A DNA stretch of 64,000 nt from Lacipirellula parvula (GTDB taxonomy: Bacteria; Planctomycetota; Planctomycetia; Pirellulales; Lacipirellulaceae): contig NZ_AP021861.1 of the NCBI RefSeq assembly GCF_009177095.1, positions 2,214,501-2,278,500 on the forward strand, written 5' to 3'. Position 1 is the first letter of the stretch, and every line of letters starts with the position of its first letter. The notes beneath the pieces are model-generated. The model saw only the letters and a program-made list of their open reading frames with translations. It did not search any database and was not told where the DNA came from. Shown piece after piece: positions 4,366 to 58,387 of the stretch. The position numbers were made by a program, and so were the translations under genes.

Positions 4366-4845
4366 ATGAGTCTTTCCTCCCAACTGCTCGCTGAACTTAG
4401 GAACGCCATCGGGCAGGGTTCGCAATCTTTCTCCATCACGGCTGGCACTCGAACGATTCACTGCCGAGCGATCCAGTGCGAGCCGTTCGCGGCGACGATC
4501 GACGAGCTGACGCTCGAAACCGCCGAACTCGCCGGCGCGAGCGTCGCTCAGCTTCAAACGGCGAGCCAGTCGCTCGCCCAACGCGTGAACTACCTGCTCG
4601 AACCGATCGCTCCGATCGAAACCGACTCGCAAGGCTGCAGCGTCCAGATGCGGAGCAACCCGCCGCAACGCGACGACAACGCGAGCCGCTACTATGAACT
4701 GCTCCTTCGCCGCGGCGGTTCGATCGCACTCTGCCGCTTCGAAAAACAGCCGGGGCAACCCCGCCTCCGCGTTCCCGCCGCGCTGACCCACGAAGTAATC
4801 GGCCGGCTTGTCGACGATTTCTCCAGCACCGTGGATTCAATTTGA
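4366..4845 (+). CDS. Hypothetical protein downstream of spoVR
   Basis: A 159-residue acidic-to-neutral protein that I do not recognise as a named family. It starts 22 bp after the spoVR stop on the same strand, which suggests the same transcript. It has no signal peptide, membrane segment or metal-binding motif. The sequence looks like a compact alpha/beta protein ending in an amphipathic helix (HEVIGRLVDDFSSTV). An antisense frame over the same bases is judged a shadow because the plus-strand start and spacing fit the operon. Confidence 0.6.
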   Translation: MSLSSQLLAELRNAIGQGSQSFSITAGTRTIHCRAIQCEPFAATIDELTLETAELAGASVAQLQTASQSLAQRVNYLLEPIAPIETDSQGCSVQMRSNPPQRDDNASRYYELLLRRGGSIALCRFEKQPGQPRLRVPAALTHEVIGRLVDDFSSTVDSI

Positions 4846-5082
4846 ACCGCCAAGGACGCCAAGTACGCCAAGGGAAAGACGAAGAATGAACCACGACGGC
4901 ACAACGGACACGACGAAGGGAAAGAATTGAATGACGAAAGTCGAGATCACAGCAATGAGAGAGGAAGTGTTTTGCTCAGCCCTCATTCGATCTTGGCTTT
5001 TCATCTTTTCTAGTCGTGTACGCCGTGTCGTCGTGGTGAATCCGTCTGTATTCCTTGGCGCACTTGGCGTCCTTGGCGGTTC
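4844..5082. repeat. Nested pair of inverted repeats (two families)
   Basis: The outer arms 4844-4875 and 5052-5082 are complementary and made of 9-nt units CGCCAAGNN. Inside them lie arms of another family, 4889-4915 and 5013-5037, related to the 2705-2776 repeat (CACGACGG units). The centre, 4916-5012, shows no convincing gene. The stretch 4846-5207 otherwise holds only the hemQ upstream region. Confidence 0.85.
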
Positions 5083-5207
5083 ATTTTTTTGTATTCGGCA
5101 CATTGTGACGTTCCCGTTCCATCCCTAAACCTCCGAGGGCGATTCTGGTACCATGCGAATTGACTTTGAACTCCTTCGACGGCTATTCCACCACCGCATC
5201 TCTCGCC

Positions 5208-9046: not shown

Positions 9047-9084
9047 GTCTTTCTGATTCTTTCTCGTGCAGTCTCTCGTTCCCT

Positions 9085-9209
9085 CGTTCCCTCGCTCCGC
9101 GTGGGAACGTTTTTTTGACGCTCTGCGTCATTCTTTACGGCTGCTCGTATTGTTGGTCTCGCGCCGCGGGAGCGGCGGGGAGTGCGTTCCCACGCGGAGC
9201 GTGGGAACG
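9085..9209. repeat. Paired 25-nt palindromes
   Basis: Copies at 9085-9109 and 9185-9209 have the form CGTTCCC...GTGGGAACG with a GC-rich centre (GCTCCGC in one, GCGGAGC in the other), so the pair is also mutually inverted. The same palindrome pair occurs at 14624-14648 and 14729-14753. Confidence 0.85.
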
Positions 9210-9224
9210 AGGCGCGGCGGCGGT

Positions 9225-13657: not shown

Positions 13658-13786
13658 TCACGCAAAGGCGCGAAGGCGCAAAGAAGAGAAAAAAATTGTA
13701 AACGCTGAGCTGAGTTCAGCGATTGAATCATGCTCTTAAGCTTGGCCTCGCATTGTATTCCTTCGCGCCTTTGCGCCTTTGCGTGA
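13658..13786. repeat. Inverted repeat, octad-period arms, between pnp and deoA
   Basis: The arms 13658-13683 and 13761-13786 are nearly perfect complements. Each consists of 8-nt units like GCAAAGGC following TCACGC. The same family, in opposite orientation, is at 28138-28212. About 77 nt of non-coding sequence are enclosed. Confidence 0.88.
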
Positions 13787-14616: not shown

Positions 14617-14623
14617 CGTTACT

Positions 14624-14753
14624 CGTTCCCACGCTCCGCGTGGGAACGGGCGGGACGCCGCTCTGCGGCAATTTGGTGTTGGTTGTGGCTCTAACTTTAG
14701 GGCGCGCGACGCGGAGCGTCGGGGTGTGCGTTCCCACGCGGAGCGTGGGAACG
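14624..14753. repeat. Paired 25-nt palindromes between the two PNP genes
   Basis: Copies at 14624-14648 and 14729-14753 are each a CGTTCCC...GTGGGAACG palindrome with oppositely oriented GC-rich centres, identical in family to 9085-9209. The pair fills the spacer between the tandem PNP genes, close to both gene ends. Confidence 0.87.
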
Positions 14754-14757
14754 AGGG

Positions 14758-15625: not shown

Positions 15626-16160
15626 CGGGAGCGGGGAGATTTTTAACCACGAAACACACGAAGCACACAAAAAGCTTAAGGGGGAAGAATGGAGGTGTTG
15701 TACCGTGAGGAAAGCTATCTGGTGATGGGGGCGTGTTTCGAGGTCTATAAAGAAATGGGGTGTGGGTTTTTGGAGGCGGTCTATCAAGAGTGTTTGGGTA
15801 TTGAATTCGGTTTGCGATCGATTCCTTTTCAGCCTCAGCTGGAGCTACCGCTGCAATACAAGCAGCACGAACTCTCGCAGAAATACCAGCCAGACTTCGT
15901 GTGTTTCGAAAAGATCGTGTTGGAGATTAAGTCAGCCAACGCGATCATCGACAGACACCGTGCTCAAGTTCACAACTATCTTTGTGCCACAGGTTACCGA
16001 TTGGGAATCATTGCGAATTTCAATCACCATCCCAAGCTAGAATGGGAGAGAATCGTTCGATAGGCGACATCACGAAGCACCATTGTTAGTCCTTTACTCA
16101 AGTCACACTTTCTATTTGGTGTGCTTCGTGTGTTTCGTGGTAAAAACCTCCCCGCTCCCG
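15626..16160. mobile_element. Putative mini-element: 46-nt inverted repeats enclosing a GxxExxY gene
   Basis: The arms 15626-15671 and 16115-16160 are complementary over 46 nt with about three differences. They begin CGGGAGCGGGGAG, pass through a T-rich step, then run into 9-nt units CACGAANNA. They enclose one ORF (15689-16063) and nothing else. The unit splits the co-directional pair pnp2 and deoC. No clear target duplication is visible. Mobility is inference from structure. Confidence 0.6.
15689..16063 (+). CDS. GxxExxY protein (PD-(D/E)XK nuclease-like, PDDEXK_3)
   Basis: A 124-residue protein. The name motif GFLEAVY is at residues 26-32. Asp69 in QPDFV, then E79-x-K81 in LEIKS, form the PD-(D/E)XK pattern, with Gln93 in the following helix. 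The family is widespread, often multi-copy, and predicted to be nuclease-like, but no role is established. Here the gene sits alone inside near-perfect 46-nt inverted repeats and runs opposite to the flanking salvage genes. Both facts argue that it is carried by the repeat unit rather than belonging to the cluster. Confidence 0.9.
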   Translation: MEVLYREESYLVMGACFEVYKEMGCGFLEAVYQECLGIEFGLRSIPFQPQLELPLQYKQHELSQKYQPDFVCFEKIVLEIKSANAIIDRHRAQVHNYLCATGYRLGIIANFNHHPKLEWERIVR

Positions 16161-27989: not shown

Positions 27990-28587
27990 GAACCGCGCCT
28001 GGTGTGGGGGCGAACGGAGGGAGCCGCGATCTACAACCTAATGGAGCGGGGCGGCTGATTCCAGCTTGATCTTGGGGTGGTGCTAGAGCCTTGAGGCTTA
28101 ACTTACACCGGGAACTCAAAGGCTCTTGCACTGTTTTCTTTGCGCCTTCGCGCCTTTGCGTGAGACTTGCCTTTCTTCGGATGATCTCACGCAAAGGCGC
28201 AAAGGCGCAAAGGGGAAGACGAATTCGGGAGATAAGGAATTGGGCTAGGTCGCACTCATTGGCTCGTTGAGGCGCGACTCTTTTTGAGAGTTTCATAGCG
28301 TCCTGGACGGTTCAATCTCAAAGATTGCCGCACAAATTGGCGAATACCGGGCGTCATTCATGAGGGGCTTCGCGGGGATTCCCCTAGCAGCGGCATACTC
28401 GGGAGCCCGCTGGCGGTCCGATTTCGTCCGGTTGGGGTTTATTCTTCGAGCGGCTTATCCCGCCAAATTGGGCCAATTTGCCGTCGGCAGCGCCAGCGCT
28501 CATAATGCAAGTCTATGGCTGGACACGGCTTCCGGCCTGCCAGCCCCCGCCGCGACGCACCTCCTTCCTCAATAGCCCACTCAAGTC
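27990..28587. other. 598-bp interval upstream of the secretion operon
   Basis: This divergent interval holds the octad-period repeat at 28138-28212 and, presumably, promoters for amn and gspE. From about 28320 to 28587 the sequence has no supported gene; a 71-codon open frame there lacks any family likeness. Confidence 0.45.
28138..28212. repeat. Inverted repeat, octad-period arms, inverse orientation
   Basis: The arms 28138-28165 and 28185-28212 share the family of 13658-13786 (GCAAAGGC units). Here the TCTCACGC ends face inward across a 19-nt loop, the reverse topology. That could mark the junction of two neighbouring units or an inverted copy. Confidence 0.85.
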
Positions 28588-30285
28588 ATGGACGCCGGAC
28601 AGATTCTGTTGAAGCACGGTTTGCTGTCCGACTCGGACCTTTCGCGGGCAATCGATGCCCGGACGAACGGTTCGCGCGTCGATCAGTTGGCCGTCGAGAT
28701 GGGACTGGTCGGCGAAGCAGACGCCTTGCGGGCGTTGGGACTGGAGACCGGCGTTGATTTCATCGAGCTTGAGTCGGCCTCAGTCGACCTGTCGCTGCTG
28801 CAGACTTTTCCGCAGAGGCTGATCCATCGCCACGGGTTGTTCCCGATCGAAAAAAGTCGCGGGGCCGTGCTGGTCGCGACTTCCGATCCGCTGAACCTCC
28901 ACCCGCTCGACGAAGCGGCGGCGGCCCTGGGGTGTCCGATCATTCCCGTGGCGGCGACGCGCGAGGCGATCGCCAAGCGGATCAAAACGCATCTCGGCGT
29001 CGGCAGCGAGACGATCGAAGGGTTGCTTGCCCAGCGCGAAGAGGAAGAGGTCGAACTCGTCGACGGCCTGCAAGTCGAGGATGGCGAAATCGCCGCCGAG
29101 GTGCAGGAAGCGTCGGTCGTTCATCTGGTGAACGAGATTCTGCTCGAGGCCATCGACTCGCGAGCGTCGGACGTGCACATCGAGTCGCAGCCTTCGGGCG
29201 TGAAGGTGCGTTACCGCATCGACGGCTTGCTGCAGCAGCAACCGACGCCGCCAGAGATCAACCGCTTTCAGGCGGCGATCATCAGCCGGTTAAAGATCAT
29301 GGCGCGGCTGAACATCGCCGAGAAACGCCTGCCGCAAGATGGTCGCATCAAGCTGAAGGTGCATGGCCGCGAGGTCGATGTCCGCGTGTCGGTGATCCCG
29401 ATGTTGCATGGCGAGGGAATCGTCATGCGTATTCTCGACAAAGGGAAGATGGAATTCTCCCTTGAGAAGCTCGGCATGGCGCCGCAGATGAAGGCGACGT
29501 TCGATCGGCTGATTCGCATGCCGCACGGCATCATCCTGGTGACGGGGCCGACCGGTTCGGGCAAGACGACGACGCTTTATAGCGCGCTCGTCGGCATTAA
29601 AAGCGAAGATACAAAAATCATCACGACCGAAGACCCGGTCGAATACCAGCTCGAAGGGATCAACCAGATTCAGGTTCATCCGAAGATTGGGCTGACGTTC
29701 GCCATGTCGCTGCGTTCGATCTTGCGGCATGACCCTGACGTGGTGCTGGTGGGCGAAATTCGCGATCACGAGACAGCGGAGAATGCGATTCAGGCGTCGC
29801 TCACTGGTCACTTGGTGTTTAGCACGCTTCATACGAACGATGCGCCGAGCGCGTATACGCGACTCGTCGACATGGGCATCGAGCCGTTCCTCGTGGCGAG
29901 CACGATCGAAGGGGTGATGGCCCAACGGCTCGTGCGGCGGCTTTGCCCCAAGTGCCGTGAGGAGTACGAACCGCAGCGAGACGAATTGCCGGACGATTTT
30001 CCGTGGGACGAGTACCGTGCGCTCGATCGACCGATCTACCGCAACACCGGTTGCCGCGCCTGTCGCGGGGCGGGGTTCGCCGGGCGGCAAGGGATTTTCG
30101 AACTGTGCGAAACGACCGACGGCGTGCGGCAGTTGGCCCATGACCGCGCGAGCAGCTGGGAGATTCGCAAGATCGCGCTGAAGGAAGGGATGCGTACCTT
30201 GCGCGACGATGCCTGGCACAAGGTGTTTGAGGGAATCACGACGGTGGATGAAGTGTTGCGGGTCACTAAAAGCGACATTAAGTAG
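28588..30285 (+). CDS. gspE: Type II secretion ATPase GspE
   Basis: A 565-residue protein. The N1E/MshEN-like domain is at residues ~1-150. Then come the PilT-type ATPase with Walker A GPTGSGKTT near 321-329, the Asp box in ITTEDPVEYQL, the Walker B region VGEIRDHETAE, and the His box in LHTNDA. The zinc insertion has CPKC near 452 and CRAC near 489. It powers pseudopilus assembly at the inner membrane. It begins the operon that continues with gspF, but a mini-element with its own gene now stands between them. A PilB role in type IV pili is possible, though the pseudopilin set favours T2SS. Confidence 0.92.
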   Translation: MDAGQILLKHGLLSDSDLSRAIDARTNGSRVDQLAVEMGLVGEADALRALGLETGVDFIELESASVDLSLLQTFPQRLIHRHGLFPIEKSRGAVLVATSDPLNLHPLDEAAAALGCPIIPVAATREAIAKRIKTHLGVGSETIEGLLAQREEEEVELVDGLQVEDGEIAAEVQEASVVHLVNEILLEAIDSRASDVHIESQPSGVKVRYRIDGLLQQQPTPPEINRFQAAIISRLKIMARLNIAEKRLPQDGRIKLKVHGREVDVRVSVIPMLHGEGIVMRILDKGKMEFSLEKLGMAPQMKATFDRLIRMPHGIILVTGPTGSGKTTTLYSALVGIKSEDTKIITTEDPVEYQLEGINQIQVHPKIGLTFAMSLRSILRHDPDVVLVGEIRDHETAENAIQASLTGHLVFSTLHTNDAPSAYTRLVDMGIEPFLVASTIEGVMAQRLVRRLCPKCREEYEPQRDELPDDFPWDEYRALDRPIYRNTGCRACRGAGFAGRQGIFELCETTDGVRQLAHDRASSWEIRKIALKEGMRTLRDDAWHKVFEGITTVDEVLRVTKSDIK

Positions 30286-30293
30286 CGAATAGT

Positions 30294-30726
30294 AATGGGG
30301 AATGCTGAATGGGGAATGGGGCATAGTGAGGGGACTCGTATGCGAAATCAAGAGTTGAGCAACCGTACCAAGCAGTTTGCGCTTCGTGTGATGAGACTAT
30401 TCTCTGCTTTGCCGCATTCGGACTTGGGGCGTGTTCTCGGTAAGCAGTTACTTCGATCTGGAACGTCAGTCGGCGCAAACTACCGTGAGGCCTGCCGAGC
30501 ACGTTCTGATGCGGAGCTCATCTCCAAGCTTGGCATTGTCGAGCAAGAGCTAGACGAATCGATTTACTGGATGGAACTGTTAGTGGACGGCGAGATCGTC
30601 ACCGCCGCGCGCTTGGGCGAGTTAATGACGGAAGCCGACGAGTTAATGAAGATCGTGGTGACCTCCATCAAAACCATCAAATCACGATAGTGCCACTACC
30701 CCACTCCCCATTCAGCATTCCCCATT
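30294..30726. mobile_element. Putative mini-element: heptad inverted repeats enclosing a four-helix-bundle gene
   Basis: The arms 30294-30328 and 30694-30726 are complementary apart from a few changes and consist of 7-nt units AATGGGG/AATGCTG. They enclose only the ORF 30340-30690. The left arm starts 8 nt after the gspE stop and the right arm ends 4 nt before the gspF start, so the unit occupies exactly an operon spacer. Mobility is inferred. Confidence 0.62.
30340..30690 (+). CDS. Four-helix-bundle protein (23S rRNA-intervening-sequence / S23 family)
   Basis: 116 residues from the ATG at 30340; an earlier in-frame start at 30295 lies in the repeat arm. The family pattern is clear: FALRVMRLFSALP, then LGKQLLRSGTSVGANYREA, then SDAELISKLGIVEQELDESIYWMELL, and a last helix with a KIVVTSIKT end. 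Relatives occur in rRNA intervening sequences, as Avd of diversity-generating retroelements, and as many orphan copies of unknown role. No reverse transcriptase or template repeat is nearby. It is held inside inverted repeats between two secretion genes and is unlikely to be a secretion component. Confidence 0.9.
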   Translation: MRNQELSNRTKQFALRVMRLFSALPHSDLGRVLGKQLLRSGTSVGANYREACRARSDAELISKLGIVEQELDESIYWMELLVDGEIVTAARLGELMTEADELMKIVVTSIKTIKSR

Positions 30727-30730
30727 TGTA

Positions 30731-31933
30731 ATGCCCGATTTTGCTTACATTGCACGAACTGCCACGGGGCAACGCGTTGAAGGCGTGTTGGCTGCCGGTT
30801 CGCAGCGCGAAGCATTGTTGGCGCTCGCGGGCAAAGAACTGTTCCCCGTTCAGGTGAAGCCTTCTGGCGGGAAGGTCGTCGCTGCAGGATCGCTCAAGGT
30901 TCGGCCGCAGGCGATGTCGCAGTTCTACGTCCAGATGGCGGCGCTGCTGCGGAGCGGCGTGCCGTTGTTGCGGTCGCTCGATGTGCTGGGGCGACAGGCG
31001 ACCAATCCGACGATGAAGAAGATCGTCGACGATCTCCACTCGCGAATCACCGAAGGCGATTCGCTCGCCGAGGCGATGGCCCGGCATCCGCGGGCATTCA
31101 ACGAACTTTCGCGCAGCATCATCCGCGCGGGCGGCGAAGGCGGGTTTCTCGAAGAGGCGCTCGAACGCGTCGCCAAGTTCACCGATCAGCAGGCTGAGCT
31201 GAAGGGCCGCGTGACGGGGGCGATGGCGTACCCCATCTTCCTGATGGTGTTGGGCGTCGCGATCGTCGTCGGGCTGATGATTTTTGCGGTGCCGCAGTTC
31301 GAGACGTTGTTCGAACGGCTGCGCGAGCGCGGAGAATTGCCGATTCTGACCGATGGCCTGTTGCGGGTCAGTGCAAGCATCCACACCTACGGACTGTTGA
31401 TGGCGCTGGCGATTGTCGGCATCGTGCTGGCGGCGCGACACCAGCTCATGACCGAGCGAGGACGCTGGTGGCTCGATCGGCAGCGGTTAAGACTACCAAT
31501 CGTCGGATCAATTTACAGCAATCTTGCCGTGTCGCGATTCTGCCGCGTGTTGGGAACGCTGCTGTTGGGGGGCGTGCCGATCGTGCGTTCGCTCAAGATC
31601 AGCAGTTCGTCGACTGGCAACTTGGTGCTGTCGCAAGCGATCGACAATGCCGCTGACAACATCACCGCCGGCGAATCGCTGGCGGCGCCGCTCGCGGCGA
31701 GCGGGCACTTTCCGCCGAACGTCGTCGAAATGGTCGCCGTCGCCGAGCAATCGAACACGCTCGAAACTGTGCTGACGAACATCGCGGAATCGCTTGAGAA
31801 AGAAACGTGGCGGCGGCTCGATTTATTCGTGCGGCTGTTGGAACCAATCATGTTGTTGTTTTTGGCTGGCGCGGTGCTCGTCATCGTGCTGGCGCTGATG
31901 CTGCCGATGCTTAAGTCGGCGACGTCGATGTAG
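30731..31933 (+). CDS. gspF: Type II secretion inner-membrane protein GspF
   Basis: A 400-residue protein with the duplicated T2SF domain. The first copy, residues ~60-185, contains MAALLRSGVPLLRSLDVL. The second, ~265-385, contains GTLLLGGVPIVRSLKI. Three hydrophobic segments are at about 165, 215 and 370. It is the platform on which GspE acts. The start is 4 bp after the four-helix unit, whose right arm therefore supplies the upstream sequence of this gene; no strong ribosome-binding site is seen there. Confidence 0.93.
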   Translation: MPDFAYIARTATGQRVEGVLAAGSQREALLALAGKELFPVQVKPSGGKVVAAGSLKVRPQAMSQFYVQMAALLRSGVPLLRSLDVLGRQATNPTMKKIVDDLHSRITEGDSLAEAMARHPRAFNELSRSIIRAGGEGGFLEEALERVAKFTDQQAELKGRVTGAMAYPIFLMVLGVAIVVGLMIFAVPQFETLFERLRERGELPILTDGLLRVSASIHTYGLLMALAIVGIVLAARHQLMTERGRWWLDRQRLRLPIVGSIYSNLAVSRFCRVLGTLLLGGVPIVRSLKISSSSTGNLVLSQAIDNAADNITAGESLAAPLAASGHFPPNVVEMVAVAEQSNTLETVLTNIAESLEKETWRRLDLFVRLLEPIMLLFLAGAVLVIVLALMLPMLKSATSM

Positions 31934-32063
31934 CGTGCGTTGCTGAGTCGGTGTCGATCGTGCCCGCGCGGTGATACAATAGCTCGCTCTTAACCAGTCT
32001 CTCCGATAAGCAGGGTTCGCCCGCTTCCGACGAGTTCAAGAAAACCGAGGAAAGGATTTGAAA

Positions 32064-46820: not shown

Positions 46821-46911
46821 AATGACGAATGACGAAGTCCGAATGACGAATGAAATACCAGAAGATTCAGGGCTTACCCCATTCGTCATTCTGGCTTCGT
46901 CATTCGTCATT
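46821..46911. repeat. Inverted repeat, heptad-period arms, between galM and greA
   Basis: The arms 46821-46852 and 46880-46911 are 32 nt each and nearly perfect complements, made of 7-nt units AATGACG with one diverged unit in the same place in both arms. The unit lies between the convergent galM and greA genes and could serve as a terminator-like hairpin. Confidence 0.92.
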
Positions 46912-57799: not shown

Positions 57800-58387
57800 A
57801 GTCGACGCTCCGGCGATGCGAAGTTGGGAGGGATAGCGAAGCGGGTCGCTCAGTCAGGCGGGGCGGGGAGCATAGGGACCGACCATGGCGGAATGGAAGG
57901 CCACTTTGTGACGGCGGCATGCGGAGAGAAATGCGGGGAGATTAACCACGAAAAGCACGAAAGGGACGAAAGGGACGAAAGGAGGAGGAGGGGCATTGAC
58001 CGCGAATCACGCGAATCGTCGCGAATAACTCAGGAATACCGACAGGGCGTGCTCGATGCCTTCGCTCGACTACACTCTCTTGCACGAATTCATCCCCAAC
58101 GATCGCAACGGCGGTAGTACTGAATTTCATTCGCGAAGATTCGTGGTCCCTAATTTCCTTTTCGTTCCTTTCGTGCTTTTCGTGGTTAATCTCCCCGTAT
58201 TTAGTCGTAAGAATCCTCCCACAGAACTGCTCTTTACGGCAAACCGGTCGCCCGGCACAATACCCGCCGAATTCAACCCCTCCGCCCCAATCCCGCATGG
58301 CAACATTCGGGGGCGTCTCGTTAGCCCCTGGGCGGGCCCCAGAATCGTCTGGTCATGGATGGCCAGGTACAAGCAAGGAGTGCTGAC
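57800..58387. promoter_or_regulatory. 588-bp divergent interval upstream of the receiver and ompH genes
   Basis: It holds the nested repeat at 57934-58196, with promoters for two divergent units presumably at its edges. AAGGAG at about 58376 is the ribosome-binding site deciding the GTG start at 58388. No gene is supported inside. Confidence 0.5.
57934..58196. repeat. Nested inverted repeats sharing end sequence with the GxxExxY unit
   Basis: The outer arms 57934-57983 and about 58150-58196 begin CGGGGAGATT-AACCACGAA and continue as 9-nt units NCACGAAAG. The inner arms 57998-58033 and 58120-58148 belong to a different 9-nt family (CGCGAATCN). The outer end matches the GxxExxY unit at 15626, but no ORF is enclosed. 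Confidence 0.85.

Follow-up and report, generated by a model that had tools for sequence, protein, structure and literature searches.

We found that the small S23-type gene lodged between gspE and gspF in Lacipirellula parvula is no local oddity: it lies between inverted arms made of tandem heptads and belongs to a widespread class of such units. Our reading, to which we give a probability of roughly 60%, is that the unit at positions 30294-30726 of the window (the whole stretch of 64,000 nucleotides that was analysed) is a copy of an element class that consists of an S23 gene and inverted arms of about four to five clade-cognate heptads, and that has gene-less derivatives.

The unit between gspE and gspF

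The unit and the genes around it are laid out as follows.

28588-30285, plus strand: gspE, upstream host gene (context)
30294-30321, plus strand: left heptad arm (AATGGGG AATGCTG AATGGGG AATGGGG), period-7 self-match 0.81
30340-30690, plus strand: S23-type (23S_rRNA_IVP / TIGR02436) four-helix-bundle gene, 116 aa
30694-30703, plus strand: right side of the inner stem, which pairs with 30317-30328 in the RNA fold and overlaps the arm
30699-30726, plus strand: right heptad arm, complementary to the left arm at 27/28 positions
30731-31933, plus strand: gspF, downstream host gene (context)

An earlier note on this DNA had described a 116-residue S23-type gene in heptad inverted repeats between gspE and gspF, and its coordinates hold, including the 8 nt between the gspE stop and the left arm and the 4 nt between the right arm and gspF. 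The arms are 28 nt each and 96% complementary, they are period-7 arrays (AATGGGG x4 on the left, CCCCATT x4 on the right), and the inverted-repeat score of the unit is 25. An alternative in-frame ATG at 30295, inside the arm, would give a protein of 131 aa. The 116-aa ORF belongs to the S23 family by its matches to PF05635 (E 8e-18, 65 bits, curated cut-off 33.8) and TIGR02436 (E 3e-26, 91.8 bits, cut-off 24). The best NCBIfam matches of the upstream and downstream genes are GspE (614 bits, below the curated cut-off of 630) and GspF (333 bits, below the curated cut-off of 424). The RNA fold of the whole unit has a z of -3.3, equalled by 0/100 shuffles, and the predicted stem reaches inward to about 30294-30328 / 30694-30726. 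In profile searches the S23 protein of the unit matched no transposase or nuclease family, PF05635 being its sole Pfam match, and inspection by eye showed no target-site duplication at the borders. No known Rfam family scored at or near its gathering threshold on the unit, and no rRNA was matched by Rfam in window positions 28000-32000 or in 20 other S23 loci.

The position between gspE and gspF, and nothing else, speaks for reading the gene as part of the type II secretion operon. From 43 genomes of the family we retrieved 30 gspF loci, 28 of them with gspE upstream, and the S23 unit is present in three of these 28 spacers, all three in this genus (G000, G138 and G140, where the unit is orthologous). 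Within the same genus, two genomes have a spacer without the unit (48 nt in G142 and 484 nt in G141), and elsewhere the S23 family sits between other genes. The spacer comparison that the earlier note had proposed thus finds a unit that turns over at the level of the genus and no conserved secretion-linked gene. Within this sample the secretion reading is refuted, we give it almost no credence, and the unit is unlikely to act in type II secretion.

Period-7 arms at S23 genes and their heptad grammar

PF05635 is present in 70 of the 117 genomes that represent the order, often more than once per genome; the 14 control genomes gave no match. We examined 149 S23 loci: 8 from the same genome as the window, 86 from relatives in the order, and 55 from named contigs of Planctomycetota, Verrucomicrobiota, Acidobacteriota, Chloroflexota, Thermodesulfobacteriota, Myxococcota, Lentisphaerota, Nitrospirota, Poribacteria and others, these 55 being near relatives of the window protein. 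The PF05635 sample consisted of 30 loci and 60 more among the matches listed, with the own genome and family taken first and the rest mostly by score. L005 was left out because it spans the pseudogene already counted as L035, bringing the number from 150 to 149.

The survey of S23-type genes for flanking short-period inverted repeats, likewise proposed earlier, was positive at most loci: strong arms, defined by an inverted-repeat score of at least 14, flank the gene at 121/149. Among random 350-nt segments, 0.3-0.7% reach this score (10/2,929 in the window and 13/1,943 in other S23-bearing contigs), and when the downstream side was swapped in from another locus, 28/720 pairings did so (counted off a histogram). 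The best period in the 121 armed loci is 7 in 114, 8 in five, 9 in one and 12 in one. The arms match themselves at a mean of 0.71 when shifted by 7 and 0.72 when shifted by 14, whereas any other shift between 3 and 15 gives 0.26-0.35. A period-7 stretch is found on at least one of the two sides at 133/149 loci versus 12/166 single control stretches, which are one-sided, so that a two-sided control rate of about twice 12/166 is to be expected. The median element length is 467 nt (109 loci), and the median arm is 4.4 heptads long (10-90% range 3.3-5.3), not exactly five. The 5' arm is purine-rich in 105 of the 121 armed loci, and the arms have forward polarity in 116/117 cases, as called with profiles trained on these same arms. 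Of the 28 loci without strong arms, 23 keep a one-sided period-7 stretch of at least 0.7, and at least four (L116, L128, L133 and L143) run into a contig end. A period-7 stretch of at least 0.6 is missing at 8/149 loci.

In the own genome, a protein search found four intact S23 genes and one weak, broken match. All four intact genes lie in period-7 inverted arms, with heptads AATGGGG, AAGGGGG and AATGACG (twice). The PF05635 profile finds eight places in this genome, and of the four additional ones two are broken by stops. One locus, L035 (1323622-1323936 of the genome), is an S23 pseudogene with an in-frame TAA. A period-7 stretch is missing from both of its sides, and the decay may have taken gene and arms together.

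The window also holds a small gene of another kind in a comparable setting:

15631-16155, plus strand: comparator GxxExxY (PDDEXK_3) unit, gene match 15707-16054, inverted arms of period ~9 (AACCACGAAACACACGAAG)

Its gene matches PF13366 with E 1e-38. Among the 30 best-scoring GxxExxY loci in the same set of 117 genomes, 26 have arms, with best periods of 9 (11 loci), 8 (10), 10 (three), 11 (one) and 4 (one). The earlier note had taken the S23 and GxxExxY units to be of the same kind. This stands for the architecture, which in both is a small gene in short-period inverted arms, with gene-less versions, and fails for the period, which is 7 for S23 and mostly 8-10 for GxxExxY. By eye, the GxxExxY arms also have cores like CACNGAG and AACCAC ends, and the protein is of a nuclease superfamily rather than the S23 family. 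The further idea of one architecture carrying interchangeable small proteins did not survive, given that the periods differ and the heptad grammar follows the S23 clade (see below). GxxExxY genes occur in 51 of the 70 S23-bearing genomes versus 9 of the 47 others.

Several other repeats were seen alongside these units. Hairpins with period-8/9 arms of the GxxExxY kind (CGCAAAGG, CACGAAAGG, CGCCAAGGA) lie in the window at 4843-5083, 13658-13786, 57934-58197 and 2705-2776, all with too little room for a GxxExxY gene, and a hairpin of CGCAAAGG units at 28138-28212 has its polarity reversed, the pyrimidine-rich strand coming first. At locus L002 (700-1060) there is a nested hairpin, with CACGAAA arms within the loop of CGCAAAGG arms; a query across it gave more than 100 matches each in G000, G138 and G140, mostly short and partial. 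At 9082-9212 and 14622-14755 of the window there are two inverted pairs around CTCGTTCCC(T/A)CGCTCCGCGTGGGAACG, which are REP-like and not of short period.

The heptads of S23 arms become more alike with increasing identity of the S23 proteins (Mantel 0.41; 0/500 permutations as high, maximum 0.06). At equal protein identity, coming from the same genome makes a pair slightly more alike at most. The Mantel, tree and polarity analyses were based on 157 loci (the 149 and eight of nine cyanobacterial plasmid loci, L212 being left out for having the same spacers as L211), minus 40 with an inverted score below 14, an arm shorter than 18 nt or a best period other than 7. A two-component mixture model, fitted to the arms alone with the protein data unused, yielded one grammar around GAW and one around YYRG. 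The GAW grammar covers 49/49 rows on one side of the deepest split in the S23 protein tree, drawn from many phyla, and the YYRG grammar covers 64/68 rows on the other side (clade II), where all 68 rows come from one order of Planctomycetota. Placed on the protein tree, which was built from 113 columns and whose bootstrap had not settled, the arms-only clusters need 5 changes versus 38.9 in shuffles (0/500 as low). Both clades, and with each of them its grammar, are present in the own genome. It is the type of protein, not the bacterium, that the heptad word follows; joint descent of gene and arms would yield part of the Mantel signal without any recognition.

Cyanobacterial plasmid loci were fetched for nine of 26 rows in the earlier search and for ten of 32 rows in a later test, the later ones picked by similarity to a clade II protein. 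All ten of the latter have period-7 inverted arms (score 17-31), with heptads that by eye are mostly YAGNNNN. The grammar model put 7/10 in the expected class and called one in reverse polarity. Three of the plasmid loci (L211, L212 and L213, from Planktothrix) have near-identical S23 genes (358/360 identical), and L213 differs from the other two in the copy number and make-up of its heptads on both sides: the arrays also turn over in steps of seven. These three have drmD on one side and on the other a large gene, for which 2/3 records give PglX or MmeI.

Such turnover brings in the possibility that the heptad arrays are by-products of replication slippage and that S23 genes are merely nearby. 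According to PMC4679880, Mrazek 2007 put forward a polymerase footprint of 7 nt, and where genomes abound in 5-11-nt repeats, heptanucleotides are mostly the most frequent class (PMC4679880). The Planktothrix arrays, changing by sevens at 358/360 S23 identity, fit slippage, as do two S23-negative genomes that are rich in arrays. Slippage does not lead one to expect paired arms in inverted orientation that all share one polarity, a grammar tied to the S23 protein clade, or GxxExxY arms with periods mostly of 8-10 in the same set of genomes. Arm inversion, polarity and the clade-tied grammar already disfavour this by-product reading, and we consider it very improbable.

At the genome level, two period-7 array patterns match 47/70 S23-bearing genomes versus 7/47 others (p 2e-8), or 47/69 versus 4/32 when the small-genome family f7 is excluded; these counts are partly circular, as the S23 units contribute their own arms to the matches. 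The reversed patterns, which also have period 7, match 10 and 37 of the 117 genomes, so the genome-level count speaks for period-7 arrays and not for the grammar. Arrays also occur in seven S23-negative genomes and are numerous in two of these. The two (G067 and G102) have no PF05635 match, with class II pattern counts of 47 and 114 and reversed-pattern controls of 12 and 38; gene loss, missing contigs or another driver are possible explanations.

Gene-less hairpins, constraint and relocation

Gene-less inverted repeats of the same kind are dispersed in the genome, as seen in the window, and are also found in gspE-gspF and gcvH-gcvPA spacers of related genomes. The window has two with period 7:

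46821-46911, no strand assigned: gene-less period-7 hairpin with AATGACG-type arms, as on the S23 genes L003 and L004 of the own genome
1486-1586, no strand assigned: gene-less period-7 hairpin with YAGNNNN-type heptads (AGCGGTC, AGCTGTC)

Among the 28 gspE-gspF spacers of the family, four have gene-less period-7 hairpins with scores of 12-22 (G121, G133, G111, G048) and two have weaker ones (G075, G118). The hairpins of G086 and G081 have period 9, and many of the remaining spacers show no such hairpin. The second S23 copy of the own genome lies between genes that we take to be gcvH and gcvPA. In this spacer G000 has the S23 unit, G138 a gene-less hairpin of the AATGGGG type, G142 and G139 gene-less hairpins of the AATGACG type and the GATTGCG type, respectively, and G140 a hairpin of another kind.

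The gene and the arms are both under constraint at the gspE-gspF site. The three S23 orthologues have pS values of 0.84, 0.73 and 0.89 and pN values of 0.08, 0.14 and 0.15, so that synonymous sites are near or beyond saturation while the protein is under strong purifying selection. The left arms of G000 and G138 are identical at 27/28 positions. The heptads of G140 differ (20-21 of 28) and its own arms pair at 28/29 positions. Arm sequence and arm pairing are thus both kept, and the arms change together.

Units are often inherited in place, since 22 of the 45 closest S23 pairs share both flanks, and flanks are shared even where the flanking proteins are only 56-61% identical. Some unit sites are kept across Pirellulaceae. 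In another 11 of the 45 pairs there is no homology on either 780-nt flank, including two copies on one contig of G004, and the remaining pairs are one-sided or cut. Closely related units at unrelated sites show only relocation or transfer on evolutionary time. Movement itself was not caught: no two strains were seen to differ in a unit, and neither a transposition event nor an enzyme for one was found, so that the shared mobilisation principle suggested in the earlier note gained no support.

In-place inheritance also fits a role that is useful to the host, and domestication for intercistronic RNA control is the chief rival to our reading. Here the hairpins would serve the host in mRNA stability, processing or attenuation, S23 would be a host regulator that binds them, and the units would seldom move and would not be selfish. 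The usual site is indeed a spacer between co-directional genes (gspE-gspF and the annotated plasmid loci), selection on gene and arms is strong, single sites are retained across Pirellulaceae, and wherever the gcvH-gcvPA spacer was retrieved in the genus (five genomes), a hairpin of some sort is kept in it, with differing sequence. A domesticated regulator sits less well with a patchy occurrence (70/117 genomes), with the unit-free 48-nt gspE-gspF spacer of G142 within the genus, with closely related units at unrelated sites in 11/45 pairs, with several units per genome beside unrelated functions, and with the decayed, armless copy at L035. Weighing these, we judge domestication unlikely and prefer the reading of the unit as a copy of an element class.

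Known systems and what the units may be

The S23 unit stands between the intervening sequences (IVS) of 23S rRNA and the RAYT/REPIN system and is a member of neither. Like the RAYT/REPIN system, in which a small gene lies between its own inverted repeats and gene-less hairpins are dispersed, S23 units combine a gene in its own inverted repeats with dispersed gene-less hairpins. However, RAYT/REPIN arms are aperiodic palindromes and those of S23 units are tandem heptads, and RAYT/REPIN units contain a Y1 (HUH) transposase where the S23 unit matches PF05635 only. Y1_Tnp genes occur in 61/70 S23-bearing genomes versus 23/47 others, a correlation that may reflect repeat-rich genomes generally. Strong inverted arms are present at 16/20 Y1_Tnp genes of the order, for which wider flanks were searched than for S23. 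We considered Y1 transposase genes as bearers of the heptads and rejected them, their arms being REP-like palindromes of their own. The loci L248-L267 are planctomycete Y1 transposase genes, many between inverted palindromes of the GTAGCCAGGGGCGCAAGCCCCTGG type, an arrangement that is presumably the classical RAYT/REP layout.

An S23 IVS of 23S rRNA, such as the 428-nt IVS of Coxiella, has been called selfish, and its stem is cut by RNase III (PMC4990558). Compared with the IVS described there, the window unit shares an S23-type ORF between terminal inverted repeats of about 28 bp, a length of about 430 nt and an RNA stem (PMC4990558). The window unit lies in the spacer of a protein operon rather than within a 23S rRNA gene and has arms of tandem heptads, and cutting by RNase III is demonstrated for the rRNA IVS only. 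The stem predicted for the window unit would be long enough for RNase III.

Heptameric G-rich repeats in Xanthomonas and Nostoc have period 7, usually four units, and an intergenic position between aligned genes (Rehm 2015, PMC4692102). Convergent inverted pairs number 70 in Xcc and 75 in Xac, and Nostoc PCC 7120 is reported to have few heptad pairs and none on plasmids (PMC4692102). They are interpreted there as G-quadruplexes with a role yet to be found, and the paper nowhere uses the term four-helix (PMC4692102). These repeats resemble S23 arms in period and inverted-pair layout, and X. campestris is also the species of the S23 structure Xcc0516. Under the S23 grammar, the published heptads score no better than many random heptads of like make-up, and we therefore claim only period and layout as common to both. 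In the open-access literature, which leaves most subscription papers outside, we recognised no link between S23 or GxxExxY genes and heptad or other short-period inverted repeats. Both halves are in print separately, as S23 ORFs in rRNA IVS and as orphan heptad repeats (PMC4692102, PMC4679880).

The AlphaFold2 model of the window S23 protein has four helices and a pLDDT of 96.5. Its closest folds are the S23 protein 2rld (Z 19.4) and Xcc0516 from X. campestris (2gsc, Z 16.7), structures with five chains each; Xcc0516 is described as a homopentameric toroid (PMC4990558). The model shares its four-helix-bundle fold with Avd and bAvd of diversity-generating retroelements (DGR), and Avd chains, alone or in the DGR ribonucleoprotein, match it with Z 13.6-14.4. 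Since a designed helical bundle scores 13.7, the Avd match by itself is uninformative. Two clade II S23 proteins also match bAvd, below its cut-off. These matches are what favours a retro-mobile unit, in which S23, like Avd, would recruit a reverse transcriptase encoded elsewhere, and this enzyme would copy the unit's RNA. In contrast to DGR, we saw no genome-level link to reverse transcriptase (RT): RT genes occur in 37/70 S23-bearing genomes versus 19/47 others (p 0.26), and RVT_1 was unseen in 33 S23-bearing genomes, some of them incomplete drafts. We reject RT as an obligatory partner, and copying by a recruited RT is improbable.

For the element class that we prefer, the following mechanism is conceivable. 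The S23 protein, a four-helix bundle with five-chain relatives, would bind the heptads in RNA or in single strands or hairpins, perhaps with one heptad per subunit, so that a pentameric ring would read some five heptads. The protein would come from copies that carry the gene, and hairpins without it would be their non-autonomous derivatives, in the relation of REPINs to RAYTs. Thanks to its RNA stem, the unit could live harmlessly in operon spacers, as the IVS does in 23S rRNA helices. For the copying itself, our preferred guess is a replication-based route through the hairpin with S23 protein bound. By analogy, S23 rings might generally read a heptad code, one word per subunit, and define a transposase-less mobile class in many phyla, of which the rRNA IVS, the orphan cyanobacterial and xanthomonad heptads and those S23 genes that stray into defence operons, cas included, would be parts; this broader scheme is possible, though on balance doubtful. 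The TRAP ring, which reads spaced triplets, offers a likeness for such a code.

S23 genes have been counted among CRISPR-Cas-associated functions, on the ground that 18 lie in cas loci (PMC3936711). Among the cyanobacterial plasmid loci, we saw S23 units between CRISPR-Cas genes in L215, L269 and L274 (once between csx2 and cas1, twice between cas6 and cas4). Because the S23 gene has its own heptad arms in all three cases, these appear to be inserted units rather than cas components, and S23 in cas loci is a warning against guilt by association. We also noted three partial S23 matches in phages.

Structures of S23-type proteins have been solved since 2006-2007 (release dates of 2gsc and 2rld), and in a 2016 paper these proteins were still without known function (PMC4990558). 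The tie between S23 clade and heptad grammar offers a direct, testable candidate ligand for them. The excess of heptanucleotide repeats in bacterial genomes has so far been ascribed to polymerase slippage (PMC4679880) or examined in terms of G-quadruplexes (PMC4692102), and S23 units are a possible origin of it.
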